Source of the DNA: Bacillota bacterium
GTDB taxonomy: Bacteria > Bacillota > Sulfobacillia > JACIYH01
DNA length: 64,000 nt
Assembly (NCBI GenBank): GCA_040757085.1
Contig: JBFLXJ010000017.1
Location: 93,095 to 157,094 of the forward strand
Reading direction: 5' to 3'
Shown in pieces: positions 21,849-49,181 of this stretch; the first letter of the stretch is position 1; every line of letters begins with the position of its first letter. Made by a program: the position numbers and the translations under genes. Below the pieces are notes generated by a model. That model ran no database searches. It saw nothing but the letters and a program-made list of their open reading frames with translations, and had not been told where the DNA came from.

Positions 21849-22598
21849 CTACCTTCGCAGGGTCACCACGTGCTGGTCTAGCCCGAGGCGCAAAACCTCC
21901 AAGCGGCCTGAGGCGGGAAGTATCGTGTCGATGAGTGCCGGTTGAAACCGGAACGGGAACAAGCTTGGGCTATGTAACAGATGCTTCAGCGTTGCCGTAC
22001 CGTCCGGCCGCGTATATAGCCATGCCTCGACTAGCCAGGAAATGAGTTGGGGATCATCGACTGTGAGGGATAAGCCCGGGAGATAGACGCCTTTCGTGTT
22101 GCTATCTCGGAGGACGCCCCAGTCGACATAAGAACGCAGGACACGGCGACAGGCCCTGGAAACCGTCTCTCGTTCCCCATACTGCTCCCGCACCCGCCGC
22201 TGAACATGGGCTGCCGCGGCTGAGCCCTGGAGCTTGAGGAGCCGGCCGACAATGCTCGCCACAGCCCCCCAGAACGGGTAGGCCGCCATGACCATCCCCC
22301 AATGGACCGGAAGACGGTTGGTGGGGGAAAGGCGCCGGAGCAACTCCAGCCCGTGGGCACGCAAGGAGTCAAGCTCTCGTGAGGTCTGGGCCCAAACCTT
22401 CACCAGTATGGTAATAACCTTCTCACGGTTGCTACGTTCAGCATGCCCGCCGATAGATACCTTATCCTCCAAGAGATCGCCTAGGGCCGCCACTACGGTG
22501 GCCCGGTCGCTTCCGGCGAGGACGAGGTTTGCTGTCACTTCGAGCCACTCAAGCCGGATACGCTGGCTAATACCGATCTGATTGGCGCGCGAAGTCAT
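21849..22598 (-). CDS. brxA: BrxA-like protein, last gene of the BREX type 3 operon
   Basis: Predicted 249-residue helical protein without signal peptide. Its place as the last gene after pglZ and the pattern RLEWLEVTANLVLAG near the N-terminus followed by WAYPFWGA-like and RRVLRSYVDWGVL segments fit the BrxA (DUF1819-like) component. Assignment rests more on gene order than on strong motifs. BrxA proteins bind DNA, but their role in BREX is not settled. ATG 22598 follows AAGGGAGGG and overlaps the pglZ stop by 4 bases. Confidence 0.65.
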   Translation of the reverse strand: MTSRANQIGISQRIRLEWLEVTANLVLAGSDRATVVAALGDLLEDKVSIGGHAERSNREKVITILVKVWAQTSRELDSLRAHGLELLRRLSPTNRLPVHWGMVMAAYPFWGAVASIVGRLLKLQGSAAAAHVQRRVREQYGERETVSRACRRVLRSYVDWGVLRDSNTKGVYLPGLSLTVDDPQLISWLVEAWLYTRPDGTATLKHLLHSPSLFPFRFQPALIDTILPASGRLEVLRLGLDQHVVTLRR

Positions 22599-24673: not shown

Positions 24674-27635
24674 CGCCGCCACCCTCTACACGGATCAGGA
24701 GCAGGCAGGTCATCTCTGGAGATACCTGTGCTCTACGCTCGAGTTCTTCCCAGGTGCTCCGCTCTTGCCTGGCCAGGAGGTTGAGGCGGTGGCCTCGCAC
24801 CTGCGGAAGCCCAATCCGTTCGATGGCTTTGCGCCTGGAGGCAAAGGCGTAGGCGGCCTTCTCTCGCTCACGCGCGATGTGGGCCTTGTGTTCCTGGACA
24901 AGTGCCTCGTAGACGGGCCTTCCGAATTCTTCAGCTGCCTTTTCCAGCTTTGCGAAGGCGGTCGCGGAGGACTCGGCATCAAGCGTGGAGTGGAGCAACG
25001 GAGTGGCGACGAGAAGTTGGTCCCAGATATGCCTTGCCGTGGGAATGAATACCTTGTTGCTGTCCGACAAGAAGAGTGGTACGACTCGCGTGTACCGGGT
25101 CTCGGGCCCTGAGTCGCCCACTGCAGAGATCTGCCAGAGAGACCAAAAGCCCTGGATTTCCCGGGCAACGCCCGGCAGGGATACCACGGGGACCGGTTGC
25201 CCGGGAACAAACCGTGGCAGGCGCATGGCCAGGCCTCGAACCCTGGGGTCTTCCAGTGTGAGGTGCCGGGCGGTTGGGAATTGTTCTGCTTCCTTAGCCG
25301 AAAAGACCACATCGACATACACTTTACCATCTGGCCAGGTGAGGTCCCAGTGGTGGCCGTGACGTTCTGCCTTGCCGCCATGGGCGTTGAGATAGTTGAC
25401 TGTCATACGCTCCACCCAATAGGGTAGGGGGTGCGTCAGTAGCTTGTGCGCCTCCCCCGGGTCGAGCACAGGCGCCGGCCCAAGAATAGAGGCGTTCGCT
25501 TGCAGTCCGCGAATTTGCCTCTCAATCTCGGCGATTGCCGTGTTCACGGAGTCCTCCACCTTGTCCGGATTCAAGATCGCCTCCAGATACAGGTCCTCGA
25601 ACACCCGCCCCGCCTGGGCCGAATCGAGGACATCGCCCGTTTTATCGACGCGGAGCTCCTCAAGAATCACCGCGAGCTTCTCTTCCAGGACTTCCCGGAC
25701 CCGATGCTCCACGGATTCCTCAAGAACAAAGTTGATCGCTCTTACCGCATGCTTCTGCCCGATGCGGTCCACGCGGCCGATCCGTTGCTCAAGCCGCATG
25801 GGATTCCACGGGATATCATAGTTGATGACCACGTGGCAGAACTGCAGATTCAAACCCTCTCCGCCAGCATCTGTCGAGATGAGAATGCGGGCTTCATGGG
25901 CAAAGGCCTCCTGAACCCGCCTCCGCTCCTCCAGATCCATGGAGCCATTGAGGCAGACAACCGTGAATCCCCGCTCGCTCAGAAACTGATGGAGCATTTC
26001 CTGGGTAGGGATGAACTCCGTGAACACGAGCAGCTTGAAGTTTGGGTCGCCTTCTTCGGCCTGAAGACGGTAAATCCAATCGAGGAGGGCCTCGGCCTTT
26101 GCGTCAGGGGTAGCCTCCTCGCACCGGGCGGCGATTTCCAGAAGGCGCTTAACCTCGGCGCGTTCGTTCCTTAGGGCCGTAAACCGAACTGGCAACAGTG
26201 CTTCCAACTGCTGCTGGCCATCCAACTCTCCCCACTCTTCTTCAAAGTTCAAAGGGAGGAGGGAGAGATGCTCCTGCGGATTGTTGAGGGCCTGCAACCG
26301 CCTTTCCAGCGCCGTACGGATGGCGCGAGTGCTGGAGACGACCAGGCGTTGCATCAATATCATCAGGAACCCGATGTAGGTGCGCCTTTCCCGTATCGCC
26401 TCGTTATATCCGTCCCGGACGTACTCGCTTACGGCCTGGTAAAGCAAGCGTTGGTCTTGGTGCCGCTCCCCCCAGGAAATCGGAACGAGCTGCGTGTACC
26501 GAGGTTTGAAGAGCGGCCTTCCCTCAGTATCAATGGCACGGCGTTTCTCCGTCCGGATGACGTAGGGCTGAATGCGCTCCCGGGTTACGCTTTCGGCATC
26601 GGGGAACGCCCGGGGGTCAATTAGGGAAACCAGCCGGTGGAAGGCGTCGGTCTTACCCTGATGTGGGGTCGCCGAAAGAAGTAAAAGATAGGGCGCTGCC
26701 TCGGACAACCCCCGGCCAAGTCTGAAGCGGGCCACCTGGTCGGTGCTGCCCGCCAACCGGTGGGCTTCGTCTATGATGACGAGGTCCCAGCCCGCCCAGA
26801 TCAGGTCTTCAAAGCGCTCCCGGTTGTATTGCTCTACCTGGGCTGCCGTCCAGCCACGGCGTCTGTCTATGGGCTTCACGGCGTCCATAGGTACTACTAC
26901 CTGCGAGAACATCTGCCAGACGTTCGGTTTGGAAAATCGCACACTGCTAGTCGTAAGCTCTCGGTTGCCGGCGGGCTGGTGCGCGCTGTCGGCCAGGCGG
27001 CGCAAGTTGGGGGCCCCAAGTTCCGGGCCTCGAGGCACGGGGCCGAGGTTCCTGTAACCCGGTGCACCCAAGTCAGAGCCGGACACGGAGAAAACGCGCC
27101 GCAATGCCTCCAGGTCCTCCGGAAGCACGACCTTGAAATCTTCCCCAAAGTGAAGACGCATCTCGGCCACCCATTGATCCACCAGGCCCTTGGGGGCAAC
27201 CACCAGGGTGCGTTTTACGAGCCCCCGTAGCTTTAGTTCCCGCATAATCAACCCGGCCTCGATGGTCTTACCCAGTCCCACTTCATCGGCAAGGAGGTAG
27301 CGAACGCGGTCACCAGAAACGGCGCGGGACAGGGCCAGGATCTGGTGGGGGAGTGGGATGATTGAGGACCCGATGGGGGCAAGCAACACATCCTGTGTGA
27401 GCGCATCCGCCACGCGAGCGGCAGCAGCGGTGTATTGGATGTGATCGGGCGAAGCGGTGCCGGCACTCTCCAGCGGCACCAGCCTGGAAGCGGAAATACG
27501 CACCACGACATCCCGGCTCGGCAGCCACACCCGGCAGATGGTCTGGCCCCAGATGGTCTGTGCCTCGATCACCTGGCCGAGTTCCCCGTGGTCGCAACTG
27601 TAGAACCATGCACCCTGGGCAAGGTCACTGGTCAC
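24666..27635 (-). CDS. brxHII: BREX-3 SNF2-family helicase BrxHII
   Basis: Predicted 989-residue SF2/SNF2 ATPase. Motifs in order: DEVGLGKT (about 117-124), LVVAPKGLVDQW, VIIDEAHRLAG (about 286), LLSATPHQGK, then the second RecA-like lobe with LLVFTEFIPTQ, LISTDAGGEGLNLQ and QRIGRVDRIGQ. This is the HepA-like group, shared by BrxHII of BREX type 3 and DrmD of DISARM. The neighbours (PglZ, BrxC, BrxF, PglXI) settle it as BrxHII. It may translocate on DNA during phage exclusion. Start overlaps the DUF3644 gene stop by 4 bases. Confidence 0.88.
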   Translation of the reverse strand: MTSDLAQGAWFYSCDHGELGQVIEAQTIWGQTICRVWLPSRDVVVRISASRLVPLESAGTASPDHIQYTAAAARVADALTQDVLLAPIGSSIIPLPHQILALSRAVSGDRVRYLLADEVGLGKTIEAGLIMRELKLRGLVKRTLVVAPKGLVDQWVAEMRLHFGEDFKVVLPEDLEALRRVFSVSGSDLGAPGYRNLGPVPRGPELGAPNLRRLADSAHQPAGNRELTTSSVRFSKPNVWQMFSQVVVPMDAVKPIDRRRGWTAAQVEQYNRERFEDLIWAGWDLVIIDEAHRLAGSTDQVARFRLGRGLSEAAPYLLLLSATPHQGKTDAFHRLVSLIDPRAFPDAESVTRERIQPYVIRTEKRRAIDTEGRPLFKPRYTQLVPISWGERHQDQRLLYQAVSEYVRDGYNEAIRERRTYIGFLMILMQRLVVSSTRAIRTALERRLQALNNPQEHLSLLPLNFEEEWGELDGQQQLEALLPVRFTALRNERAEVKRLLEIAARCEEATPDAKAEALLDWIYRLQAEEGDPNFKLLVFTEFIPTQEMLHQFLSERGFTVVCLNGSMDLEERRRVQEAFAHEARILISTDAGGEGLNLQFCHVVINYDIPWNPMRLEQRIGRVDRIGQKHAVRAINFVLEESVEHRVREVLEEKLAVILEELRVDKTGDVLDSAQAGRVFEDLYLEAILNPDKVEDSVNTAIAEIERQIRGLQANASILGPAPVLDPGEAHKLLTHPLPYWVERMTVNYLNAHGGKAERHGHHWDLTWPDGKVYVDVVFSAKEAEQFPTARHLTLEDPRVRGLAMRLPRFVPGQPVPVVSLPGVAREIQGFWSLWQISAVGDSGPETRYTRVVPLFLSDSNKVFIPTARHIWDQLLVATPLLHSTLDAESSATAFAKLEKAAEEFGRPVYEALVQEHKAHIAREREKAAYAFASRRKAIERIGLPQVRGHRLNLLARQERSTWEELERRAQVSPEMTCLLLIRVEGGGGE

Positions 27636-28717
27636 TTCCGCTTCCTACCTACAAACCTGTGCTTGTGTTTCTCCCACACCGCATCCGCATCGATCCCCGC
27701 ATTTATGGCGCTTCTCAGCCTATCCAAGGCCGCCTTGCTGTAACCCTTCAAAGTCGTTGCCTTTCTTCGCAAGACCTTGAAGCACTCTGGATCTTCTTGA
27801 ATACCAAGCTCGAGTATAAGAGCGCTGGTCCTGGGTCCGGACAGGTTGAGTTTCTGAGCGATGTCATCCCGGCTTAGGTTATACTTATCCCAGATGTTGA
27901 CCTCATGCTTGATCACGGTCCCGACAACTGGCTCACCCTCCTTTGCCACCCGGACGGCAAGGTCTGCATCTTTCTTGATGCGGAGGTAAATGGGGATGCC
28001 TTCGCCCTGACTGTCTAGCCTGAGTTGAGCAATCTCGGGAAGGATGATGCTCCACTCCTCCCCCCGCCGCCTGCGTTTGATCACCTTCCGCAACTCCCTT
28101 TCGGTTACCCGTTGTGCGTCGTCGCGGATTGCTGTTGCGAAGGCAAGGATTGGTCGGAGTCTTGCCGCAGCCTGAACACCTCTACGCCTGCCGGACTGCA
28201 AGAGGTCGTCCACCTGGCGCAGTTCGCTGTCTATTAAGAGTCTCAAGTCTTTGGGAGGACGAGTCGATATGGGCAAGACACGTTCAGGGATGGAGTCCGC
28301 AAGTCTTTCTTTGAAAACCCGGTAGAGCAGATCATCGAAAAGCGTCACGGCAGCCTGGGCCTGCAAATAAAGGAGGTCTTCCGACACCTCTTGGTAGTAA
28401 TGAACGGAGGTATCCCGGTAGGCGTCGAGAATCGACAACGTGGACCGTTCATCCGCAGAGATTACCTGTATCTCGTTGTGTGCCACCTCCAGACACTTGT
28501 CAAAACCATACGAGTATTTCTGCCCCTTAGTATGTACTGTCCCGGTCTTGTCCATGATAACCGCCTTCAGGAGCATCTCGAACGCGTGATGAAGGAGAAT
28601 CAGCACACCTTCGGCGCGGCCCCGGTCGTGGGGCCGGTTGAATAGTTCGATGCCAAGCACAATGGAGTTAACGGCGCGTTTCTTCAGTTCAGCCACATGC
28701 CGCTTGCATCGAGGCAT
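27632..28717 (-). CDS. DUF3644-family (HEPN-like) protein inside the BREX operon
   Basis: Predicted 361-residue protein. Residues 15-75 (VLGIELFNRPHDRGRAEGVL, LLHHAFEMLLKAVI) match the DUF3644 start, a helical HEPN-like domain common in defence islands. The C-terminal part has a helix-turn-helix (NLSRDDIAQKLNLSGPRTSA) that may bind nucleic acid. It is not a core BREX gene, yet it lies 6 bases after pglXI and overlaps brxHII by 4 bases, so it is transcribed and probably works with BREX. No RX4-6H ribonuclease motif is obvious. An accessory effector or regulator is plausible. Confidence 0.75.
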   Translation of the reverse strand: MPRCKRHVAELKKRAVNSIVLGIELFNRPHDRGRAEGVLILLHHAFEMLLKAVIMDKTGTVHTKGQKYSYGFDKCLEVAHNEIQVISADERSTLSILDAYRDTSVHYYQEVSEDLLYLQAQAAVTLFDDLLYRVFKERLADSIPERVLPISTRPPKDLRLLIDSELRQVDDLLQSGRRRGVQAAARLRPILAFATAIRDDAQRVTERELRKVIKRRRRGEEWSIILPEIAQLRLDSQGEGIPIYLRIKKDADLAVRVAKEGEPVVGTVIKHEVNIWDKYNLSRDDIAQKLNLSGPRTSALILELGIQEDPECFKVLRRKATTLKGYSKAALDRLRSAINAGIDADAVWEKHKHRFVGRKRK

Positions 28718-28723
28718 GAAGCG

Positions 28724-31700
28724 TCACTCTCCTGTACGGGTCACAGCCTGGTCGTACCACATAAGTAACTTCGGGTCTTCCTGCAGTATGGTCTCGGGTA
28801 TTTTCCGGGCGACGGTGATGATCGTGGCGTAGTCCCGCTCTTGCCAGGCCTTCCTGAATCCGGCGCGGACGGCTTCCATGCGGAATATCCTGAGACAACG
28901 TTGGGACGAGGCCTTGTATTCTTCAAATTCACGCAGCAGAGCTCGCTCGCGCAGCTTCTCTAAGTCACCTGCCTTGTTTGGGTCAGGCACGTACCAGCGA
29001 TCTTTTGCGGCGGCTATGAGTACAGGGTGCTGGGTGACTAGCCCCACTATCTCCTCGGCAGCCCGTCCCGCAGTGAGTTCTTCCTGCACAAGCTTGCGTA
29101 GTCTTTCGCTCTGCCTGATCCAGGCCACTAGTTGGGTGGGAATGGGGCCCCTCCCGTCGTAGACGAGGAAATTCTGCTGCAGAAGTTCTGATAGCTCGAG
29201 GGGTTTTTCGTGCTTCTGCCATCCGCCGATCTCCCGTAGGAACTGGGGGTGGAGTTCCTGGAATGTCTGTGGCTTCCTGGTGAGTTGCTGTTTGAGCCAC
29301 TGGATGGCCGAAGACTCATCGATGACGAAGAGCTGAAGCTGCAGGACATCCTTCACCGTCATGCGCTTCCGGTCATATTCAGCCGCCTGATCCGGCAGGA
29401 AGTACATCCCGTCGCGCTCGGGAAAGCGCTGGCCCAGACCCTGATAGAACTCTGCTGCCGAGAGCGGAACGGTCACGCCCCGCCGGACGTGGAAAGCCAC
29501 CATGCGGTCAAAAAGCAGGTAATTCATCCGCTCTGCGATGACCTCGGCTTTGCCGTCTCTCGCAACAAAGACCGGAAGGTGTCTTAGGTGTGTGCGAACG
29601 AAGTCCCACACCCCTTCTTCGGTCCCGGCCACGAGCCTGAACCGTTGCTCCAAACCGGCATTTGGCTTGTAGCAGGAGATGATGATGTCTTGCTTCACTG
29701 CAGCCGCACTCGTTAGCTGTTTGAACGTTCCCTGCTTCTTATCCAGCGTGCGTACATCGGCAACTACGAATCCCGCAGCTTGAAGCGCCTGCAAGATGGC
29801 GTTCCACACCCGGTTCTGGGAATTATGAAACTCGACCGTCATCCAGCGACCGGGTTTGAGCACGCGGTAGCATTGCTGAAAACAGCGGGTCATGAGCTGC
29901 TGGTACTCCATGGACCCCTTGCCCTGGGTTTCGTTCTCTATAGCTTCCGGCTTGTTGTTGGTGAAGACCTTGAGCCAGCTTTCCCACAGGAAGTTGAGTT
30001 CGGAGTACATCAGGTTGCCCCCGAAGGGCGGGTCCGTGAATATGTAATCACAGCTAAATTGTGTTCCGCCCTCCACAGACGTGCTGCGGGTTTCAGTCAA
30101 GACGGATGGAATATCTGTGTTTTTAACGCGTGCAATACTCTTAGGCAAGCGATTTCGCCAAGTCTCAAATGGCTGAACTTCGACGGAAAACGAAGGTATA
30201 TACAAAGTGCCCGAGAGCGGTGTCCCCACCCATCCGCCACCGCCGTGGAAATAGTAAGAAGTGAGAAAACGGGTGAGTTTGCTTTGCCGTATGGCGAGGC
30301 TGTCAAATTGGTACAGAAGCTCACGGCTCAGGCTGGATGCTAGAATCGCTCTTGCAAATGTGCAGAGCACCCACAAGTTTCGCTTGGTGTAGAAATGGTG
30401 CACATGGGTGATGCCAGCATGATAGCCAGCTCGCCAAGTATCCCCCCATTGCTCGCCCTTGAACATCATTGGCTGCGTGGGGAACCAGTACGGGATGTCG
30501 CTTTGCTCAATTTTCTCGATCAGAGCCAAATCGAAGACGTCGGGCCCTTTCTCGTAGCGCTCGTTGCCCACGGAGTAGTTGATAAGCACGGGGACCTGCT
30601 TGGCCTGGCGGATGGTCTGTCCGATGGCCTTGTCGAACTTGGTGACCCACGTGCGCTCCATGCAGCGCTTGGTGAGCATGGCTGTGCAATGGGGACAGGG
30701 GAATTGGTCACGTACCGTTCCCGCTTCTCTGTCCACTGCGGCCTCCCAGAAGATCACCTCCCGGGCACATTCCGGGCAGACGAAAACATCGGACCAGACG
30801 GTGTAGTTGATCATTCCAACGGGAGCGCCCTGAGCCTTGAGTCCGTTGACGAATGCTCGGAGTTCGTCCTCAGACTTTGCCGAACGTACCTTCTCGGCGA
30901 GGCTTTCAACGTAGGCTTGATCAGCCGGGCCGCTCCCGGGTAGGTTGCTTCCCCCAGTTGCATCAACCAGCGTTGCGTACATCCAGCCGCATTCCTCTTC
31001 CACTTTCTTGAGGATGTGCATGGCCTCGCGCTCGAAGGCCACAACGTCCACCGGCGTGTTGTAGTTGTACGCGATGAACGTGGCGGCCGGCGAGAGGTCG
31101 TTGAGTACGGCGATGCGTGGGCCCAGTTTCGAGAAGGGCTTCCAGACCGTCTTGACTTTTCCGTCCGCGCCCCTTTCTTCCTCGGGTTGATAGATGATGC
31201 CCTGCTCGTCAACTTTGTAGCCCAGGGACTCGACCGTGGCCTTGTCGCCGCACAGTTGGGCCGCTACCCCAGTCATCCCTGTACCGCAGAAGCCATCGAA
31301 GACGATGTCTCCTGGTTCCGTGTAGTGCAGGATGTAGCGCATTATGGCCTTGTGCGGTACCTTCGTGTGGTACGAGTGGGCGTTGTAGATGGGATCGTTC
31401 TTGCCCTCGCTCACGTCCGCCGCGAAGGGCTCCCGGCGGTAGTGGTCTGTGGCTGGGTCGTAAGGCTTAGCGTATTGCCGGATGAAATCCCCGATAAATG
31501 GGTTTGGGCACGCAGTGTAATACGGCGGATCGGACAGGGCAAGAATATCGTTGATGGTGCCGTGGGGAAAGCCGACCTCGTCCTTCCAGCGCTGCAGCAG
31601 GTCCTTGCCCGTTTCCCCGTAACGCATCCGCTCAGCCAGCTCCCGAAGGGTCTGTTCGTTGCCCATGGGCCAGTTCTCCACGGACTTCATGCGGTTGTAG

Positions 31701-31894
31701 GCGTCCTCCACTGAGGTGAATGGGACCCCGCCCAACTTTGTGTGCAATTCCTCCAGCCCGACCCGGAGCTTGTCGAGGAAGTAGGCGCGCCTGGCCTCAT
31801 CGTTCTCGAAGGTTAGCCCGAGGCACCGAACCTTACCCCCGCTCGTCGCGGTCTGGTTGTTAAGAAGACTCCCTAGACCGGGTTGTGTGTTCAT
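28724..31894 (-). CDS. pglXI: BREX-3 adenine-specific DNA methyltransferase PglXI
   Basis: Predicted 1056-residue methyltransferase of the Zn-ribbon COG1743 type. The catalytic motif SDPPYYTACPNPF lies at residues 121-133 and the SAM-binding FDGFCGTGMTG at about 199-209, an order typical of beta-class amino-methyltransferases. Between them and the middle is a zinc ribbon (VCPEC...PCPHC). A second TDPPFGGNLMYSELN is near residue 622. In BREX the methylase marks host DNA so that only unmodified phage is excluded. ATG 31894 is chosen by homology-like N-terminus (LGLTFENDEARRAYFLDKL follows soon) and an AGGAAG site 12 bases upstream. Confidence 0.87.
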   Translation of the reverse strand: MNTQPGLGSLLNNQTATSGGKVRCLGLTFENDEARRAYFLDKLRVGLEELHTKLGGVPFTSVEDAYNRMKSVENWPMGNEQTLRELAERMRYGETGKDLLQRWKDEVGFPHGTINDILALSDPPYYTACPNPFIGDFIRQYAKPYDPATDHYRREPFAADVSEGKNDPIYNAHSYHTKVPHKAIMRYILHYTEPGDIVFDGFCGTGMTGVAAQLCGDKATVESLGYKVDEQGIIYQPEEERGADGKVKTVWKPFSKLGPRIAVLNDLSPAATFIAYNYNTPVDVVAFEREAMHILKKVEEECGWMYATLVDATGGSNLPGSGPADQAYVESLAEKVRSAKSEDELRAFVNGLKAQGAPVGMINYTVWSDVFVCPECAREVIFWEAAVDREAGTVRDQFPCPHCTAMLTKRCMERTWVTKFDKAIGQTIRQAKQVPVLINYSVGNERYEKGPDVFDLALIEKIEQSDIPYWFPTQPMMFKGEQWGDTWRAGYHAGITHVHHFYTKRNLWVLCTFARAILASSLSRELLYQFDSLAIRQSKLTRFLTSYYFHGGGGWVGTPLSGTLYIPSFSVEVQPFETWRNRLPKSIARVKNTDIPSVLTETRSTSVEGGTQFSCDYIFTDPPFGGNLMYSELNFLWESWLKVFTNNKPEAIENETQGKGSMEYQQLMTRCFQQCYRVLKPGRWMTVEFHNSQNRVWNAILQALQAAGFVVADVRTLDKKQGTFKQLTSAAAVKQDIIISCYKPNAGLEQRFRLVAGTEEGVWDFVRTHLRHLPVFVARDGKAEVIAERMNYLLFDRMVAFHVRRGVTVPLSAAEFYQGLGQRFPERDGMYFLPDQAAEYDRKRMTVKDVLQLQLFVIDESSAIQWLKQQLTRKPQTFQELHPQFLREIGGWQKHEKPLELSELLQQNFLVYDGRGPIPTQLVAWIRQSERLRKLVQEELTAGRAAEEIVGLVTQHPVLIAAAKDRWYVPDPNKAGDLEKLRERALLREFEEYKASSQRCLRIFRMEAVRAGFRKAWQERDYATIITVARKIPETILQEDPKLLMWYDQAVTRTGE

Positions 31895-31974
31895 GATGCT
31901 GCATCTTCCTCTTTTCGGTGTTCCGTCTCCCCGGACCCCGGGTCCGGCCATCTCTTCCGCAATCGAATTGCCCG

Positions 31975-34900
31975 CTATTCCAGGATTACACGCACTTTGC
32001 CCGGGTCCTTGCCCCTCGCGAGGTCCTCCAGGAATTCCTCGAAGCGCTTCTTCAAGTCACCGAGGGTGGCGGGGGAACCGCCGGTGAATAGGGCCGCGCG
32101 GAGGTCTTCCATCTTGATGGGTACTCTCACGAGGCCAGAAAGCACCTCTTGCAGAGCGTGGATGAACGCCTGGTCAATCTTCTCTGGTAACATCCGCCGG
32201 CTCATGAAACCCTGTAGAAGCTTCTTGGCCTCGGGCTCGAGCAGGTCCAGGTTGCCTTGTGCGGTAGGATCCTCCAGGTTGTCGAGGAGTGCCGCGGTCC
32301 AACTTTCCATCAGCGCATCGAGCCTTTCGTCCAAGGCGTCCAGTGCCAAAGCAGCCGGCACGGTCACCGGCTCCAGTGCCGGTTTATAGCCGCAGTGCGG
32401 GCACACGGGCGACATTTCCAGATCGTGTTCTGCGAGGGAAAAACATGACCGCAAGCTGGCGAGGCGGTTCTGGAAGTCGGCCAGCTCCTGGCGGGGCAGG
32501 AGGTCAATAGTGGAGAGACTCTGCAGAACCTTCAGCCGGCTATCGGTAGTGAGTTGAGCCTTGCGTTTGTCACCATTCACCCCCAAGCGTGCTCTTGTGT
32601 GCGCAGAAAGATATGCCTGCCGGTAGGCGTTCTTTAATTCCGCGAGCTGGCGGTAGGCTTCTTGACGGAAGGCAACACTACGGCGCCTGGCGGGATCGCC
32701 CAACTGGGACAGGACCCCGTCCCGCACTGTCTCCATCTTGCTAACCAATTCGTGATCGCCAGGCAGTACCGCCTCAGCTGTGGCGAGGTACGAAGCCACG
32801 GCCCCGAGGTCGTTTACCAGGCTCTGAAGTACTTCCACTTCTTCCAGCGCGGAGAGACCTGCCCGCTGCGCGGTTACTTCCGGAACATCGTACCGCAGGT
32901 TCTTCAATTTCCCCGGGGAGGTATATACCTGGAGCGATTCCAGGAACGCCTTTGTGTCATCCATTTGGGAACGCAATCTCGCCCCCTCTTGGTCGCTCAC
33001 GAGGCTCTTGCCCCAGAAAACCAACCCGCCTTTCAGAGCCTCCTTCGCAAGGACCAGTCTTTGAAGTTCTAGTTCTACGGCCTTTTGCAGCTGTTGTACT
33101 GGCTCCTCTTTCCCCTGGGTGACCAACTGTGCCATCCCCGGCGTCAGTTTCAGAAGCTCGAAGAGCGCCTTGAGCGCGGGCAGGTTCCATTCCTTGGGGT
33201 GCTCTATGTGCTTAAAACGGGTGAGCTCATCGACTGGAGTCGACGCCAATTGGGCAACCCCGGTGGCGTCGAATTTCTTCCCGGGAATTGCCAGAACTAC
33301 ATCGCCCGAGTACACCAGGGCGGCCAGGATAACAACCAACCACTCTGGCTCCAGACGGTACCCCTTGTCCGGTGCGAAGTACTCGACACCCGACACGTCT
33401 TGGAGAAGCTCGCTACGGTTGACCACCTGGCCCGTGCCCTTCTTGGCTTGGATCTCGAGAACGTAGTTTGCATACCTCGACTTGTAAGGGACCAGTCGCT
33501 CACCGTCCAGGAGTTCCAGGGCATCGAGTACGGCTGTTGCAGGTTTGCCATGGCTTTGCCCGGCGATGGCTCGCAGGGCATCCTGAGCAGCCTGGGCCCG
33601 GTTGGCTGTGGTGATGATCACCGGGAACGAAGGGTAAGCTGGAGCCGCGTTCTCAAAGTGAGCCCGAAGGCAGGTCCCCGCCACGGTGTTCACCAGATCG
33701 CGGAAATTGATCCGCTCCGGAGTGGCTGAGATCTCCCGCACCAGCCTCCCTTCAAGCCACTCAACGAGTGGCTTGGCTCGCCCCCGGTAAGTGACTTCGA
33801 AGGCCGTGGAAACGCCTTGCCTCAGCCATTGAACGAGTTTATCCAGGAACCCGGATGCCTTAGATTCGTAGGTTGACTTTGTGTGCCCGGAGGCAGTCGA
33901 GGCCAGATCCAGGGCCGCAGCGTAGTTACGGAGGGCCATGCGGAATGCCTCGTCCATACCTTTCATGCGGAAGAAGACTTCATCCGGCTTCTTGTCGTCT
34001 CTAAAGTCAGGGGGATCAAAGGGCTGGAGGAAGTAAAGGTAAAAATCGCGCGGCGGCACTGCTGTCGAGCGCTCGTTGGGTGCGCCGAAGAAGAGATACC
34101 CCAGGCGCGTCGCCCTACGATCTGGCCACGTCAATTCGTGCTGCCATATCCTGTAGCCAGTCACGTAGGTGTGGTCGGTGCACTCCATGACCCGCTTAAG
34201 GGCTTCGTAGTAGTAGCGGTTGAGTTGGGAGGGCTCGAGAGTCTCGGCTCGCTTTTCGATCAAGGCGTCGAAGTCCTCGGTCTTCTTTAGGTCTAGATAA
34301 TACTGGCGGTTCTCCGGGTTAAAGGAAATGAACTGTCCACTCACCGTCTTGTGGATTTCCCGAAGCACGGTTTCCACCAGGGTCAGCAAGTCGTCCGCCG
34401 GCTCCCCGCCCAATTCTTCGATTCCGGGCTGAAACAGGCACAGGCCGTCGCGCAACTCCTCGGCGGTAGCACCCAGGGGGACGTGAATGTCCCCGGTTGT
34501 AAGGCGGTGCACTGACAGGGCGTGGATGATGCGTATGGCCATGGGTTTGTAAGCAGGTCGACTGAAAGCCCGGTCGACTCGACTCTCCAGTACCTCGCTA
34601 CAGCCGATCACCTCCCTGATGTCGGGGTCCGCGCGGAAAGCCGCGTTTTCTCGTAGGGTGGCCCAGTAACTGTCCCATGCAATCAACCCCGGCCTGTCGG
34701 TCGGGACCTCCTGGTCGAGAAGCTTCTGCATGGTCCGCGAAAGGGTTTTGAGCACCTCGCGTTTCTCAACGGCCTTGATCTGTTCGAAGACATCGACGTA
34801 ATCAGCGTGGACGGGGAACAGGCGAACGAATTCGTCCATGCGTTCGTTCATGCGCCCGTAGAACTTGGCAAACGGCGTGAGGTAGTCACGGATCTTGGCT

Positions 34901-35700
34901 AGCTGGTCCCCGGTTTTTTTTAGCAAACGCTCGGCCACGACGAATTTGATGTCCGTGCGGGCTATCAGTACCTCCTCAAAGCGGTCCTTGACGCGGCGGA
35001 TGCTGTCGGCCGCGAAGGAGAAGCGGGGGTTGTCAAACAGGGCCTCCTGCACCCCGGCGATAAAGCGGAACCGCAAGTCCTTGCATACCTCGCCGATCTC
35101 CCTCAGGAAGTTTAAGTCCAGGATGAGTTCCTGGTCCTTCCGCGTGCGCAGGTAATCGAGCAACTCGTCGATTACCAGCAGGAGCCCGTGGTCGGGGTAC
35201 TCCTGGTGGAACGCGGCCATCATCTTCTCCAACGCTGGCTTGTTGCTCGGGACTTCCGCTGCTGACGGGAAAACGTAGCTCACACCCATATTCGCCAGGT
35301 GTTCTTCCAACTCAGCCACAACGATATCCCGTAGTGACATGGTGGTGGCTCCGATCTCGCTACGCACCACCTTAAATCGGCCGCCGATCTTGCTTGCGGC
35401 TTCGGCCACGTTGGGGTTATTAACGTGTGCGAGGAAATCCGCGTTTTCTGCTAGGGCAGAGAGCACCGACATGAGGTGCGATTTGCCTGTACCGTAATTC
35501 CCCACGATCAAGAGTGCCTTGTTGTCTGCGGGCCGGTCGAACTGGAGGTGAGGGATGACGAGGTCAGTGAGTTTCTCGGCCATTTGGGGGGAAATGACAT
35601 AAGTCTCCACCAGTTGCCGGGCGAGAGGCTCCTTGTCTGCATCCCGCAATTGAACCACAGATTCGATCGGCTCAAATTGGATGAGGTCCCGGTATTTCAC
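31975..35700 (-). CDS. brxC: BREX P-loop ATPase BrxC (DUF6079-type)
   Basis: Predicted 1241-residue ATPase, the largest BREX core component. The start [20 protein letters not shown] and Walker [11 protein letters not shown] (about 66-75) are characteristic. A Walker B-like [16 protein letters not shown] follows. The long C-terminal part is helical, with a CPHCG knuckle near residue 1100. It is thought to form the ATP-driven assembly of the system. GTG 35700 has AGGAGG 9 bases upstream and gives the conserved N-terminus; an upstream in-frame start at 35775 would overlap brxF and adds non-conserved residues. Confidence 0.88.
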
Positions 35701-35759
35701 TTTCTCCGCCTCCTCTCCTGATATGCGGCTACCTCTCGTATCTCTGGCATTTCCTCTGT

Positions 35760-36263
35760 CTAACTCCCGTCGCACGGCGACCGCCGGTCCAGGTCTACGT
35801 ACAGGAAGTCCTGCAAGGGGTACCGCCTATACTCTGGGTGCTCGGGAGTTGCATACGTGAGGTTTCCGTCACGAAGCGCGCCATTCCACGCAGCGACTGT
35901 AGTCCTGGTTCGCGAGAGGCCTTGCAGAAGGCGAAGCGGGTCCTGCCTGAGCGCCACGGCAAAAAGGATCTCGGTGTTGTCCAGCAGGACCACGTCACTC
36001 TTGAATGCCCTAACAAGTTCCGAGAGCAACTGCGGTAGTCGCACTGCCCGCTGCCGCTCCGTAAGATCCAGCATGCGCCGGGAGAGTTCGAGGTTGACAT
36101 TTATCAGAGGAGCACCTGTGACCGCATGTACGCACCTGAGCACACGGGTCTTGCCCTTGCCCGCCGGTGCAATGACCAGAATCAGGCGATGATAGAGATC
36201 AACCGCCTGGCTCATCTTCTCTATAACCTGATGGGCGAACATCTGGAGTAAGCGATCTCCCAC
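35760..36263 (-). CDS. brxF: BREX-3 P-loop protein BrxF
   Basis: Predicted 167-residue small ATPase that opens the BREX type 3 operon and replaces the BrxB of other types. [20 protein letters not shown] contains Walker A (APAGKGKT), and [13 protein letters not shown] looks like Walker B. The C-terminus ends in a short hydrophobic strand (DFLYVDL). GTG 36263 follows GGGAGA; ATG 36242 and GTG 36308 are alternatives. Its presence with pglXI and brxHII identifies the type 3 system. Confidence 0.85.
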
Positions 36264-36632
36264 CGCGCTCTCCCGCTCCAAGGTCCCGTCACTCGGCAGA
36301 CCCGCCACAACCTGATCGTGCGGAATGAATCCCTCACCCCTTCCGCCGTACCCAGCAATAGCCCCCGTCTCATTTCTCCAGAATGTGTTTCCATTCCTAC
36401 CACATTGTGAGGACCCGTGGTTAGCCCAGGTCTTCCACGGGCGTCAGGGCGAATTGATTCACCGGTTAATGTTTCCGTGGTATCCGCGCCCCGGCAGAAA
36501 GCAAGCGTCCAGAACTCCGGGCACGAAACGTGGCGCCGCCCGGCGTGCTCGACTGGTCGTTATGTCTCGCGTTCGCGTGATTATTGCCCACTTACCCTTT
36601 TTGTGGTATCGTCTGACTTGAGGGATACAGAG
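36264..36632. other. Promoter-bearing region upstream of the BREX operon
   Basis: The BREX promoter should lie here on the minus strand, but I find no strong -35/-10 pair. No coding signal was seen. Confidence 0.4.
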
Positions 36633-36751: not shown

Positions 36752-38347
36752 ATGCAGCAGCCGGATGACGAAAGTCCGCCAAGTAACCGTGTACCTGCTG
36801 AAGCCTGCAGTCAAATCCCCGAAAGAGGCACTGAAGTACGAGCGGGGTTTGACCGAATACAGACTCGACTCACGACTCACGTTTACCGGCTCTTTTTATG
36901 TGCAGACGCCAAGCCCCTGCGTCCCTGCGTGGGTGGATTTCGTGCAGGAAGGTCTGGTCGGCCAACTCAAGTCCCCGACAAGTGCGACCGTGTCTGCGGT
37001 TCTGCTCATCAGACGCGAGTGATCGTTGGTTCGCTATTACTTTCGGCTACGGGCGCAAGCTCTTGAGACCTGACTGCTTCGAACGTTCCTTCGGTTTGAA
37101 GGTAGTGCTCAACACCGTGGATCCCCTTAACCTGAGGAGCATTGACATGCGCACTTTTGAGGAGTTGACATTGCACACTCGCCGCCAGGCCAGTCGGGGA
37201 GCCAGCCTGAATACCTTTGGCGTCAACATTGCACAGGACCTGTTGCGGGCGGTCACCGGCAAGCCCAGGGACGAGGCCTTTGCCCGGCGTGTCTCCGGCG
37301 CGGATGCAGTCGTGCTGTCGGCAAGCCTGCGCTTCGACGAACTGGGACATAAGTGCGCTGAACTCCTCGAAGCGTACTCCAGCGAAAGGTACCGCCGGGA
37401 TTTCGGTTTTGTTGACCAAATCCAGAAGATAGCTGACCCGGAGGTGGCGGAAGAGCTCAACAGGATGCTGATTGAGCGCCTGCAGACGGGAGACCTAAGT
37501 TTGATCCACCTTGCACCGCCTGAACCTGTCGAGTGGGAAGCAATTGAAGGATTCACTTATTCCACCGAGCACCACCGTGCAGTTCACGACGACCTCGAGG
37601 TGGACGATCTCTTGGCAACATTGAACAACCGCTGGCCTCTGTCGTTATCGCGTCTGAGGCGACACCGCATAGGTGTGAAGTACCATTCAGTGGAGCAACC
37701 CATCGAAAAGTGGACGCTGTATGACGCCATAGTGGCCGAGATTGTTCGCGACCGCCAGGTGTACGTCTTGTCAGGCGGCCATTGGTTCGAGGTGCACGAG
37801 CGCTTCGCGGATCGGGTGAATGCGATCGTCAGCAACTTGGGCTCGAAAACGTTTAGGCTTCTGCCGGCTCGGAAAGGCGAGCATGAGCCGATATACAACG
37901 AGCGCGTTTGCTCAAGTAACGGGTACGTTCTAATGCACGGTAGGAAGGCGATGCCTGCGGAGGGAACGCAGATCGAGTTGTGCGATATTTTGACGCCCGA
38001 CGGTAAGCTCATACACGTCAAAAGAAGGAGCCGATCCGCCACCCTCAGTCACCTGTTCAACCAAGGGGTCGTCTCAGCCGAGGCTCTTGTCTACGACGAA
38101 GCGTTTCGGAGTCAGGTGAGGGAGATCGTGGCGCAACTCGACCCAGAAACCGCGAAACTCATACCAGCCGAGCGGCCTAATCCGTCCCGGTATGAAGTGG
38201 TCTTTGCGATCATAGGCAGGAGGGCAGGGAACTGGCCACTCTCTTCCCTTCTTCAGCCGACTGAGCCTCAAGAACAATGCCGATCGCCTACAACGCTTGG
38301 GTTATCACGTTTCTGTAGTTCAAATTAACGAGGTCGATGCGCTGTAA
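36752..38347 (+). pseudogene. Frameshifted TIGR04141/DUF6119 family gene
   Basis: The family is clear from VRQVTVYLLKPAVKSPKEAL, ALKYERGLTEYRLD, DRWFAITFGYGRKLLRPD and TFEELTLHTRRQASRG, but the reading frame changes at least twice. Near 37011 one extra base separates the N-terminus from the main body (36898-38240). Near 38245 a second shift moves the last 33 residues (ending EVDAL, stop 38345-38347) to another frame. The only good ribosome site (GGGGGAGG) serves ATG 36752, again in a different frame from the body, suggesting a third lesion near 36765. Function is unknown; the family is scattered in defence islands, and this one sits divergently next to BREX. Confidence 0.75.
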
Positions 38348-38556: not shown

Positions 38557-40692
38557 CTAACCGGAGGAGGCGGTCTTCACGGTGACGTATACGGTGTAGC
38601 CGGGTCCCTTCTTCTTGGGCCTTCTCTCCGTGGTCCATGCTCCCTTGCCGAACAGAGCGTCCAGCACCTGCGGCATCAGCCGGTATGCGTCGTGGTCCTT
38701 ATCCACCACGTGGTCCGGGAGGATCCCTTCGATCTCAACCTGTATGCCCTTCCAGGGATGGCCCTGAGTGCGCACCTTCTCGGGCAGGTCTGTCTCTTGG
38801 ATACGCTTGACCGCCTCTTCCACCCAAAGCTTCTGGGTATCCACCGGCGGCGTACCCGTGGTCTCGGCGCCCTCCCCTTCCTCGGAATCGGGCGCTGGCC
38901 CGGTGTGGCGGCCGGGGATGGAGGCGAGTCGCGTCGCGAAGGTAGCACGAAGTTGGGCGGCGTAGGTCGGTGCTGCGGGCCTGGTGTAGGTGGGGTCGGC
39001 GGCGGTGTACATCTTTTCGAAGGACATCACGCGGAGGGAGACGGGGTAGCTCTTGCCGCCCGCGCTGCTCCAGAAGACGCAGTGGCCGGGGATGGGTTCG
39101 TTGAGCAGGGCGCTCAGGATGTCGTCGCTGAAGTGGGCGTTCGCCTTCTTCAGGGCGAGGAGGTCGCCGGTGGAAAGCAGGTGGAAGACGAACCAGTTAT
39201 CCCCCTGGCTGAGTATCTCGTGGGGGATGCTGCCCGGCTGCTGGGTGATGAGGACGGCGCCCAGGTCGTACTTACGGCCCTCCTTCACCCAGGTGACGTA
39301 GGGGGCGTAGCCGGAGGTCCCGCCGGAGGAGCCCAGCACCGCCTGGGCCTCCTCCACCACGGCGATGACGGGGATGGTCTCGGGGTCGGCGCGGGTGAAC
39401 TGCTCCTGATTGTAGTCGAAGATCCGCTGCAGGATGAGGGCCGAGAGGATGAGTCCCGCCTGCCCGCGCATCTGGGAGAGGTCCACGATGCAGAGTTTGC
39501 CGGCCTTGAGGGAGTTGATGAGCATGTCCAGCACCTGGCTCCCGGGGTCGTGCAGCATCTTGACGATGGTGGTCATGTTGGCTCGCGCCGCCGCCATCTC
39601 TGCCTCTTGCGTCTTTTCCAGGTGGAGGAGTTCGCAGATGATGGCGGGGTCGGCCAGGTTGCCCTGGGCGTAGATCTCGTCCACCAGGCGGCTCCAGTCC
39701 GAGTCGTTCAGTTGCTTCAACCTGCGCACGTTCTGCTGGTCCTGCTTCTCTGGGGGCAGGGCGACGGAGACCACGTCCGCCGGGCGTAGCCTGCGGATGT
39801 CCAGCCTGATGTCCCCGGCGATGAAGGAGTCGTAGAAGGGGCTGGGACCCCTGCGGTTGGTGAAGAGGACCAGCTTGTCTTCCAGGTGCGGTACGTCGCA
39901 CAGGCCAGGGCGGTTCTGGTCGTCGGGCCAGAAGTACTCGCCCTCCGGGTCGAAGATGATGGTACCCACGGGGGCCCTGCGACCGCCGCGCTTCTCGACC
40001 GTGGGCGTATCCCGGTAGAGGCTGCTGAAGAGGAGCTTGGTGAGGTTGGATTTGCCGAAGCCGGCCCGGGCGAACACGAAGGTCCGGCGCGACACCAGAC
40101 CCCGGATGTCGAACTTGGGGGTGACCCTGGGGTGCCTGATCTGCATCCAGTCCTCCACGGTGATCAGCGGCTGTCCCCCGTTGACGTCATCTCCGGCAAA
40201 GATGTACTCGCCCAGGGCCAGGTAGCCCAGCTCGGCGCCAGGGAGGTTGTGGCCGGCCACCTCCCGCAGCACGTCTTCTGCCAGGAAGGCCACCTTGCTG
40301 CCCAGGTGGGGGAGCCGGCGGTGGGAGGCGGCGAAGACGAGGCGGTCGCCGACCACCCGGACCACTCCCAGTACCCGTATGTTGATGCGGTACTTGAGGT
40401 AACGCTCGCGCAGTTCCTCCGGTATGGGGCGGTCCTCGGCTACCGCCCTCACCCCGTAGTCTTCGCCCTCGCTTGAGGTCAGGCGACCTTCGGCGGAGAT
40501 GGAGCAGATCCTCCCCAGCACGGCTTCGCTCTCGGTTTCCAGTTGCACCACCACGAACTGGCCGTGCATGGGGCTGTTCTGGTAGTCCTCCCGGTAGGGC
40601 AGGACCAGGTCGGCGTGGAATTCCAGCCCGCCTTCACTGAACCCCCGGAAGATGCCCGCCACCTGTTCCCTGCGGAATAGCTTCAGGCTCAT
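38557..40692 (-). CDS. herA: HerA-like hexameric DNA-translocase ATPase
   Basis: Predicted 711-residue ATPase of the HerA/FtsK-like group (DUF87). An N-terminal HAS-barrel-like beta domain (FHADLVLPYREDY, GQFVVVQLETESEAVLGRI) is followed by Walker A ARAGFGKSN (about 208-216), IIFDPEGEYF, Walker B VIAVVEEAQAVLG and VLITQQPGSIPHEILSQG, all typical of HerA. HerA pumps double-stranded DNA and works with the NurA nuclease. The start overlaps the nurA-like stop by 4 bases. The charged tail (about 610-711) with TTERRPKKKGPGYT is extra and may contact a partner or DNA. Confidence 0.88.
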   Translation of the reverse strand: MSLKLFRREQVAGIFRGFSEGGLEFHADLVLPYREDYQNSPMHGQFVVVQLETESEAVLGRICSISAEGRLTSSEGEDYGVRAVAEDRPIPEELRERYLKYRINIRVLGVVRVVGDRLVFAASHRRLPHLGSKVAFLAEDVLREVAGHNLPGAELGYLALGEYIFAGDDVNGGQPLITVEDWMQIRHPRVTPKFDIRGLVSRRTFVFARAGFGKSNLTKLLFSSLYRDTPTVEKRGGRRAPVGTIIFDPEGEYFWPDDQNRPGLCDVPHLEDKLVLFTNRRGPSPFYDSFIAGDIRLDIRRLRPADVVSVALPPEKQDQQNVRRLKQLNDSDWSRLVDEIYAQGNLADPAIICELLHLEKTQEAEMAAARANMTTIVKMLHDPGSQVLDMLINSLKAGKLCIVDLSQMRGQAGLILSALILQRIFDYNQEQFTRADPETIPVIAVVEEAQAVLGSSGGTSGYAPYVTWVKEGRKYDLGAVLITQQPGSIPHEILSQGDNWFVFHLLSTGDLLALKKANAHFSDDILSALLNEPIPGHCVFWSSAGGKSYPVSLRVMSFEKMYTAADPTYTRPAAPTYAAQLRATFATRLASIPGRHTGPAPDSEEGEGAETTGTPPVDTQKLWVEEAVKRIQETDLPEKVRTQGHPWKGIQVEIEGILPDHVVDKDHDAYRLMPQVLDALFGKGAWTTERRPKKKGPGYTVYVTVKTASSG

Positions 40693-41852
40693 GACGCACC
40701 TCCCATGCCGACCTCGGGGTGAAGTCGGGCCTCATCCAGGATCCCCCGCTTGTCGGGGGGTAGCAGGTCGCGCACTGCCTGGTAGATCTCGTCCTGCAGG
40801 ATGGTGAGGTCGAAGCCGGTCACCTGGGCGTACTCGTGGGCTTTCTGCAGGCACCGCGGGTAGAGGGGCACGGGGAAGCCCGCGATGGCGTCCGCCAGCA
40901 GATACCCGAATATCTCGCCTGCGCTCTCGCTCTGGGAGGAGAAGACGTCTATCGTCCAGATGGGGTCTCCCGGTCGGGATCCAAAGCGCACGAAGTACAT
41001 GTCGCCGGCGACGAACTTGGGCGCCTCGCGTTCGCCGCCTTCGGCCTCGGGCCCGCGAGCCCACTCGGGCCAGACGAAAGCCTTTGCCTCCATCTCTCTG
41101 GGCACGCGCACGTAGCAGGGTTCATCACGGAGCATCACACCCTCGATGGCCAGGGCCAGGCGGTAGCGCTCGAGCACCTTGCTGCGCTTGGCGATCCCCA
41201 CCAGGTAGATGCGCCGCCGCTGCATCCGCCAGACCCTCTCGATCGCTTCCTCTATCTTCTGGCGCCACCTGATGAACAGCTCCCCGCGGAATACCTTGCT
41301 GCGCAGCATCCCGTCCCGCACGATGAGGGTATCCGTGGCGAAGGAGTGGTTGCGGATGCGGTCGTAGAGGACCGCCCACTCGCACAGGTCGCGGTAGACC
41401 TGAATCCATGAGGGCGAAACCATTTCCGGGTGCTCCCTGATCATGCTCGCCGGGGGGATCATGGGGCTCAGATTCCACAGCAGGGGCGGATCCACACCCA
41501 GTTCGGTCATCATGACCCCCAGCGCGGTTTTCGGCTTTCCGTCGGGGGTGAACTGGGCCCGGCTGAGGGCTTCCGTGTCCGTGGTGGGGGAAACGCATTC
41601 GATGTGGTGCTCCTGCCCGTAGGAGTCGACCACGCGCACGAACTGCATGAAGAAGGGGTCGAACAGGAGCCGGTTGTTTCCCCCATCACTTCCCACCAGC
41701 GAGACCGCCGTGGTCGACCGGGGCCGTATAGGTTTGACGTTCCCGGCCAGGGGGCGCACCTCGCGGCACAGGTCCTCCAGCACCCTGCGGTCTTCCTCCG
41801 CCCGGCGGGCGATCAGCTCGCGCACCTGCCTCAGGGTTTCCGGTTCCAGCAT
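40689..41852 (-). CDS. nurA: NurA-domain nuclease
   Basis: Predicted 387-residue nuclease. The NurA hallmark GSDGGNNRLLFDPFFMQFVR (Asp near residue 56) is followed by a second conserved acidic block, TLIVRDGMLRSKVF near 175, and a C-terminal YPRCLQKAHEYAQ stretch. NurA cuts or resects DNA only when coupled to HerA, which is encoded next with a 4-base overlap. ATG 41852 sits 2 bases after the methyltransferase stop and uses GGAGG inside that gene's end. The pairing with a methyltransferase suggests action on unmodified foreign DNA rather than general repair. Confidence 0.82.
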   Translation of the reverse strand: MLEPETLRQVRELIARRAEEDRRVLEDLCREVRPLAGNVKPIRPRSTTAVSLVGSDGGNNRLLFDPFFMQFVRVVDSYGQEHHIECVSPTTDTEALSRAQFTPDGKPKTALGVMMTELGVDPPLLWNLSPMIPPASMIREHPEMVSPSWIQVYRDLCEWAVLYDRIRNHSFATDTLIVRDGMLRSKVFRGELFIRWRQKIEEAIERVWRMQRRRIYLVGIAKRSKVLERYRLALAIEGVMLRDEPCYVRVPREMEAKAFVWPEWARGPEAEGGEREAPKFVAGDMYFVRFGSRPGDPIWTIDVFSSQSESAGEIFGYLLADAIAGFPVPLYPRCLQKAHEYAQVTGFDLTILQDEIYQAVRDLLPPDKRGILDEARLHPEVGMGGAS

Positions 41853-41854
41853 GG

Positions 41855-43039
41855 CTACGCCTCCAGTCGGGCTACCAGGTCCACCTCTTCGACGGCGGTT
41901 CCCGCCCGGCAGAATTGTTCGGCCTGCCGTTTCCCCCGGGTGGAGGGGCCGGCGCTGCGCACCTCTTTGACGGACCAGCCGCAGTCGGCAAGGGCCAGGG
42001 TTCTCATGAGGACCTCTGTCCCGCTGTAGCGGGCACTGGGTATGCACCCGAAGCGCACCACCAGGCGGGCCCCCGGTGCGCAAAGGCGGGAAACGGCCCG
42101 CCATACCTGGGCCAGGGCACCCGCGAAGGCCTCACCGCTCAGCTGGCCGATCTGACCTTCACATGAGTAATCGACCGTGCTGGGCCCGCCCACGAACCAG
42201 TTGCGCAGCCACTGGTCGGGTACATAGTTCCGCATCCGCATGTAAGGTGGCGAAGTCACCACCCAGCGGAACCGTTCGGGCAAAACGTGCTCGTCGAGTC
42301 TCCTGCTGTCATCCTCCATTATCCACCCGGGGGTGCGCGGCGGTATGGTCCCGAAGAAGCGGCGCGCGCGCCGAGATACTACCTCTAGCACGCTGACCCT
42401 GGGCGGCTTCAGGCCGCGCTTGAGCCAGAAATTGACGGCGCTGTTCGGCTTGGTTGCATACGTGCGGGGCATCTGGTTGGACAGGTAAGCGGCCCCGGTT
42501 TTCTGCAGGGGGCCGTGCAGGGCGCCCAGCATGATCCCACGTAAGGCAACCTGGGGCTCGGTGATGCATTCCCGTAACAGGGCTTCGCGGACCTTACAGA
42601 TCTCAAGGAGCGTTGCAGGGTGGTAGCACAGGTCCCAGAAGGGTCCGGTGGGTACGTCTGCGGGCTCAGCGTCGGCTTGCAGGATGCGGGCGCACAGGGC
42701 GGTGACTTCCTCGGGGGTGACCTGCACCATCTTGGCGGCTGCGATGGCGACGGCTACGCGGCACCGGTCGACCCCCACCGAGGGCAACCCGAGCAACCTC
42801 GCAGCGTAGTTGGTGGTCCCCCGGCCGCAAAAGGGGTCGAGCACCCACTCGCCCGGTCCTGCCTGGCTCAGGTGGGCCAGCGGGAAATCCAGGGGGAACA
42901 TGGAGAAATAGGGGCAAATGCCGTTCAAGCGGAGCATCTCCGCGGGGAAGCCCGCCACGGGGTCGTCCTCGGGTTCGTCATGTGCTGCGTTTTGTATTAC
43001 GTTGACATCCGCAGGCTGACAGCAATTCCAGGCCCCCAT
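41855..43039 (-). CDS. DNA N4/N6 amino-methyltransferase of the NurA-HerA operon
   Basis: Predicted 394-residue DNA methyltransferase. The SAM-binding motif VLDPFCGRGTT is near residues 67-76 and the catalytic TSPPYMRMRNYVPDQWL near 260. This is the motif order of small amino-methyltransferases making 4-methylcytosine or 6-methyladenine. The middle (QMPRTYATKPNSAVNFWLKR) may recognise the target. ATG 43039 follows GGAGAGGACA. It is the first gene of the operon with nurA and herA, and would mark self DNA if they form a restriction-like system. Confidence 0.82.
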   Translation of the reverse strand: MGAWNCCQPADVNVIQNAAHDEPEDDPVAGFPAEMLRLNGICPYFSMFPLDFPLAHLSQAGPGEWVLDPFCGRGTTNYAARLLGLPSVGVDRCRVAVAIAAAKMVQVTPEEVTALCARILQADAEPADVPTGPFWDLCYHPATLLEICKVREALLRECITEPQVALRGIMLGALHGPLQKTGAAYLSNQMPRTYATKPNSAVNFWLKRGLKPPRVSVLEVVSRRARRFFGTIPPRTPGWIMEDDSRRLDEHVLPERFRWVVTSPPYMRMRNYVPDQWLRNWFVGGPSTVDYSCEGQIGQLSGEAFAGALAQVWRAVSRLCAPGARLVVRFGCIPSARYSGTEVLMRTLALADCGWSVKEVRSAGPSTRGKRQAEQFCRAGTAVEEVDLVARLEA

Positions 43040-48726: not shown

Positions 48727-48947
48727 GTGTGCGGCCACTCCCTCCCTGCGGGCTGTCCCATCAGGCCGGCCCATTGGACTACCTCGGCTGTCCCATCGGG
48801 TGGTGCTCACTACGCCCCACCCACGATAACAGACGGCGGCGGCCTCCGGTGAGTTGCAGCAGACGCACGGCTTCCCCGGTTGATCCGTGACGCCTCTACC
48901 GGTTCCCGCTCGAGGACACGGTCCAGATCGACATCAATCGCCGGTCC
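48727..48947. other. Non-coding lead-in to repeat array
   Basis: No gene recognised. The SLH gene promoter should lie here on the minus strand. Confidence 0.3.
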
Positions 48948-49122
48948 GACCGTGGACTATACGCCACGATGTCGGCGTGGACCGTGGACTATACGCCGCG
49001 ATCCGCGCCCGACCGCGGACTATACGCCATGATGTCGGGGTGGACTGCGGACTATACGCCGCGATCCGCGCCCGACCGTGGACTATACGCCGCGGTCGCG
49101 GGCCCACCGTGGACCCTACGCC
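48948..49122 (+). repeat. Six tandem 31/32-bp repeats with core GGACTATACGCC
   Basis: The core GGACTATACGCC starts at 48954, 48986, 49017, 49049 and 49080, with a degenerate copy (GGACCCTACGCC) at 49111. Spacing alternates 32 and 31 bases, so two units make a 63-base higher-order repeat with two linker types. The average of 31.5 bases equals three helical turns, placing all cores on one DNA face. A 63-base unit is also 21 codons, so a repeat-coding remnant cannot be excluded. Confidence 0.85.
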
Positions 49123-49181
49123 CCGATCACGGTCCGGCGGGGGTGGCGCCGCAACAGCAAGAGTGCTAACCAGACCCGTCG

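Follow-up and report, generated by a model that had tools for sequence, protein, structure and literature searches.

A three-gene operon in the window (the whole 64,000-nucleotide stretch of Bacillota DNA that was analysed) encodes a DNA amino-methyltransferase (MTase), a NurA/TdpB-like nuclease and a HerA/TdpA-like DNA translocase. This trio is probably (we put the chance at about two in three) a restriction-modification-like defence system in which methylation replaces phosphorothioation as the self mark. In the TdpABC system of Thermus, phosphorothioation serves as the self mark, and the operon combines HerA and NurA with the DNA-modifying enzyme TdpC.

Gene layout and identity of the three proteins

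A check of the open reading frames placed all three genes on the minus strand at 38557-43039 of the window. The MTase gene (41855..43039; 394 aa; Pfam N6_N4_Mtase, 1.9e-8; PADLOC MTase_II, 1.7e-16) is followed by the nuclease gene (40689..41852; 387 aa) and then by the translocase gene (38557..40692; 711 aa). The operon described in the initial annotation was confirmed by these coordinates and by the family matches: a 2-base gap separates the MTase stop (41855) from the NurA ATG (41852), and the NurA stop overlaps the HerA start by 4 bases (40689-40692). The longest reading frame for NurA extends to 42104, but conservation points to the ATG at 41852 as its start. A scan of the trio operon for promoters and terminators returned nothing.

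The translocase was identified by a Pfam DUF87 match (8.5e-18), by its best PDB match, TdpA (3.9e-19 with the protein and 4.3e-33 with a profile), and by intact motifs, namely a Walker A sequence (ARAGFGKSN) at 208, a Walker B sequence (IAVVEEAQ) at 443 and ITQQPGS at 482; the PDB profiles for both translocase and nuclease were built from ten homologues. Its last 140 or so residues form a C-terminal domain (38557..38979, minus strand). Among the open reading frames of the fetched loci, a profile of this region picked up the HerA proteins linked to an MTase, plus one HerA that is truncated; the domain was absent from DruA-linked HerA and from all other reading frames called in those loci.

The Pfam NurA match of the nuclease was weak (0.011, below the family cut-off), and the NurA assignment therefore needed further evidence, which came from a PDB profile, a structural model and invariant columns. 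In the profile search against the PDB, TdpB was the sole significant chain (4.7e-7). Foldseek of the AlphaFold model (mean pLDDT 80.7), which has an RNase H fold, likewise gave one significant match, chain G of TdpAB (2.8e-10), and VIA-align scored the model at Z 24.1 against TdpB (334 aligned residues, rmsd 4.6) and at Z 13.3 against archaeal NurA. D56, E158, D180, K222, Y331 and H339 are invariant among the nucleases. The catalytic residues of drNurA include D53 and K201 (PMC9960219), and D56 and K222, matched to them by motif and not by direct alignment with drNurA, stand at the likely corresponding places. No PADLOC or NCBIfam model matched the window NurA.

By sequence and predicted fold, the nuclease and pump of the trio are thus nearest to TdpB and TdpA and not to the housekeeping NurA and HerA. 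The archaeal end-resection pair, which had been offered earlier as a precedent, consequently gave way to TdpAB as the closest solved relative (Z 24.1 versus 13.3). Archaeal and Deinococcus HerA-NurA resect DNA ends (PMC9960219), and the trio could by analogy serve in double-strand-break repair of the host, with a methylase that is unrelated or regulatory. We regard this as very improbable, because the same genome carries its own, canonical NurA (7.4e-26) and HerA on another contig (C30; L025:7785-10632); in addition, the trio is rare, patchy and always accompanied by an MTase.

The motif order of the MTase is permuted, with the SAM motif DPFCGRGTT at 68-76 and the catalytic TSPPY at 262-266, some 190 residues apart, and both motifs are invariant among eight orthologues. 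TSPPY is typical of N4-cytosine methylases. The motifs suggest a permuted N4-cytosine/N6-adenine methylase, with the target base left between these two, and together with the gene context they point to DNA rather than RNA as the probable substrate. Foldseek of the MTase fold against the PDB returned generic Rossmann methyltransferases alone, tRNA enzymes included.

Conservation, mobility and defence neighbours of the trio

The initial annotation had proposed a search for conserved adjacency of the three families, and such adjacency was found in a sample of 545 genomes (299 of the same phylum and 246 Planctomycetota). The NurA clade was defined by identity, its members sharing about 46% or more and the next relatives (L022, L023) 31-36%. 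Among the 299 genomes, clade NurA was present in six and the strictly defined MTase in seven; the two overlapped in six genomes and were adjacent in every one (co-occurrence 6/6, or 5/5 once the window's own genome is set aside; hypergeometric p ~7e-12). All three clade NurA genes of the Planctomycetota adjoin an MTase as well (p ~4e-6), which brings the count to 9/9 across the 545 genomes, a rare and patchy distribution (9/545) unlike that of a housekeeping function. Separately, two operons of very divergent NurA-HerA lineages carry DruA (DUF4338) in place of the MTase (L022:7296-11652 and L024:10864-15069).

Twelve trio loci were collected from Bacillota-type genomes, Planctomycetota and one phage contig, a count that takes in Alicyclobacillus, of which A. 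acidiphilus NBRC 100859 has the trio, as well as a near-conspecific MAG and that phage contig. The order was MTase-NurA-HerA in six and NurA-HerA-MTase in four, and NurA-HerA with a convergent MTase in the remaining two (L016, L092); the linkage therefore outlives rearrangement. At a thirteenth locus, L048, the three families recur as a HerA-NurA-MTase operon of very divergent sequence, whose NurA matches Pfam at 4.5e-10. On the phage contig (L067:1079-12044), the whole trio lies between the gene for the terminase large subunit and a major head/protease gene, on the same strand. A tblastn search of plasmids and phages gave no match to NurA, and the HerA search of plasmids returned distant HerA only. 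The three genes are conserved and mobile as a single unit. Solo MTases exist (L026, L047), and at L066 an intact MTase adjoins a truncated HerA, but clade NurA-HerA without an MTase was not seen in the loci examined; a nuclease that endangers the cell when its methylase is missing would leave such an asymmetry. Distant MTases (L050-L058) were left out of the counts, because neither HerA nor NurA adjoins them.

A setting among defence genes was also found, in the window and at many further copies. Downstream of the trio, a BREX type 3 set (BrxA, PglZ, BrxH, PglXI, BrxC/DUF6079 and BrxF) occupies 21849-36308 on the minus strand and has an extra PDC-S19 gene (27632-28717) within it. Between the BREX set and the trio, on the opposite (plus) strand, lies a gene for a sporadically distributed DUF6119/TIGR04141 protein (36898-38328). 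The far side of BREX carries a PDC-S68 RecD-type helicase gene (18064-21840, plus strand), together with a gene for a McrB-like AAA protein and a gene in the McrC position (14067-17764). Besides BREX-3 and McrB-like genes, the neighbours of the trio copies include DrmA/DrmB, DrmD, AbiU, a type III REase, DpdE/DpdF-like proteins, GmrSD and a type I MTase. At two loci (L015, L091), whose flanks were inspected without a profile search, none of the trio's neighbours was recognised as a defence gene. Elsewhere in the window, short repeated stretches that encode a repetitive reading frame were noted at 48930-49140, and they recur at L014:3177-3353.

With such neighbours, the trio might not stand alone but serve as an accessory to some bigger composite system, BREX-3 in the window and a DISARM- or Dpd-like system at other loci, as the presence of BrxF/C in the window, DrmA/B at L017, DrmD at L016 and L019, and DpdE/F-like genes at L019 and L020 would allow. 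The partners, however, change from locus to locus, and the phage contig has the trio without BREX-, DISARM- or Dpd-like partners. At L014, the trio is 95% identical in DNA to that of the window over 4.4 kb, and the match stops at the HerA stop with no BREX after it; the trio is therefore a unit separate from BREX-3. No BREX-3 core genes were present in the fetched flanks of the other trio loci. We consider a composite role quite improbable. As regards the MTases of L014 and the window, a swap of specificity between them was considered and rejected, since their differences are scattered and form no single TRD-like block.

Comparison with known systems

TdpABC (PDB 8wet, 8wfd, 8y1k) and the trio share a HerA-type translocase and a NurA-type nuclease of the same subclade. 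In contrast to TdpABC, the third gene of the trio encodes a SAM methylase (DPFCGRGTT, TSPPY) and not a phosphorothioation enzyme such as TdpC; moreover, the trio HerA has an extra C-terminal domain, and the structural alignment gives the trio NurA 18% identity with TdpB. The antiphage systems HerA-Sir2 and HerA-DUF4297 similarly couple a HerA-type translocase to a partner effector but, to our knowledge, use other effectors and no methylase, and the trio HerA scored far below the cut-offs of the NCBIfam anti-phage HerA models. Type II restriction-modification resembles the trio in joining an N4/N6 methylase with conserved motifs (DNA being the presumed substrate in the trio) to a nuclease; here, however, NurA takes the place of a sequence-specific endonuclease and would be driven by a translocase. 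In the DndFGH and HerA/FtsK capture systems (PMC10853773) and in BREX-Related Capture (PMC12839542), a HerA/FtsK pump is likewise proposed to hand a nuclease the DNA of an invader, and some of these systems include a DNA-modifying enzyme, but the nucleases are different and NurA is mentioned in neither paper.

The initial annotation had not known the trio as a named system, and this needs to be amended: the ICETh1 operon of T. thermophilus HB27 already carries the three families, which lowers the novelty of the trio (PMC5365140, PMC7767461). That operon encodes the type IIG enzyme TthHB27I, NurA (TTC1878), the HerA-like TdtA (TTC1879) and, as TTC1880, a methylase of the N4/N6 type. It is presented there as DNA-donation machinery, and DNA donation is lost or nearly lost in tdtA and nurA mutants (PMC5365140, PMC7767461). 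The strongest rival to a defensive role is accordingly a transjugation-like one, in which HerA would export donor DNA with the help of NurA, as for TdtA, and the methylase would be accessory. The likeness to ICETh1, a NurA-like nuclease, a HerA-like ATPase and an N4/N6 methylase in one operon, holds at the level of gene families. ICETh1 differs in its type IIG enzyme, in being an element with an integrase and in its role in donation, whereas no type IIG enzyme was recognised among the profiled neighbours of the window operon and most trio loci are without one. The Eco57I-type methylase at L019 adjoins a DrmD-like gene and fits DISARM better. One trio sits within a phage packaging module, and the trio HerA, at 711 aa, is longer than TdtA (568 aa) and bears the C-terminal domain described above. 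For these reasons, we consider DNA donation unlikely as the function of the trio.

A literature search, with thin coverage of subscription journals, found no account of the trio as a defence system. Loss of the corresponding T. thermophilus methylase is reported to have only a minor effect on DNA transfer, and the available text of that paper does not mention self-damage (PMC7767461); this minor effect would count against a reading in which methylation guards the host from the nuclease.

Proposed mechanism and re-use of the methylase

Gene linkage, protein families and catalytic motifs were observed directly. In the restriction-modification-like reading that we prefer, the MTase would mark host DNA at a motif, a HerA hexamer would load on DNA and translocate with ATP, and unmarked DNA would be fed to a NurA dimer and degraded. 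Host methylation, sensed at the HerA-NurA complex or at the clade-specific C-terminal domain of HerA, would act as the off-signal that prevents self degradation, and the outcome would be defence. The likeliest link between the pump and the self mark appears to be the C-terminal domain. A shared mark reader was sought by looking for this domain in the effectors that accompany related MTases, both the SF1 helicases and the GmrSD and HEPN proteins, and it was not found there. The pattern that this reading predicts was observed: a conserved mobile unit, defence neighbours, HerA-NurA of the TdpAB type, and an MTase re-paired with restriction-like effectors.

The re-pairing was seen in relatives of the MTase that occur without NurA-HerA on plasmids and viral contigs. 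Members of the family stand beside a 1,415-aa SF1 helicase at L027, L028, L062 and L068-L075 (plasmids and viral contigs), mostly in convergent and nearly overlapping pairs (e.g., L027:11965-17315, L028:11965-17324), and on other viral contigs genes for a GmrSD-type and a HEPN protein come after the MTase gene (L063:4102-7628, L064:4794-8350). In the MTase tree, the SF1 pairing arose independently at least two times, while the MTases with GmrSD/HEPN fall within the other branches. A further viral contig (L066:7266-10201) has a truncated HerA followed by an intact MTase and a second, divergent MTase. Re-pairing with an SF1 helicase or with GmrSD/HEPN is as a mobile self-marking module would behave, and the family would be an example of one methylase re-used with unrelated effectors.

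More tentatively, and with doubt prevailing, HerA-NurA may be a general degradation engine whose self marks can be exchanged: Tdp would use a phosphorothioate, the trio base methylation, and the NurA-HerA-DruA operons perhaps whatever DruA makes. In MTase-linked HerA, the C-terminal domain would read the mark. If so, a translocating nuclease would be under the direct control of base methylation, with no need for a sequence-specific restriction enzyme. The restriction-modification-like reading of the trio itself, if true, would mean restriction-modification without a restriction endonuclease, with a processive pump-nuclease kept off self DNA by methylation. The trio would then link Tdp, classical restriction-modification and the ICETh1 operon, and it raises the question of which role came first and was co-opted for the other, defence or that of ICETh1.
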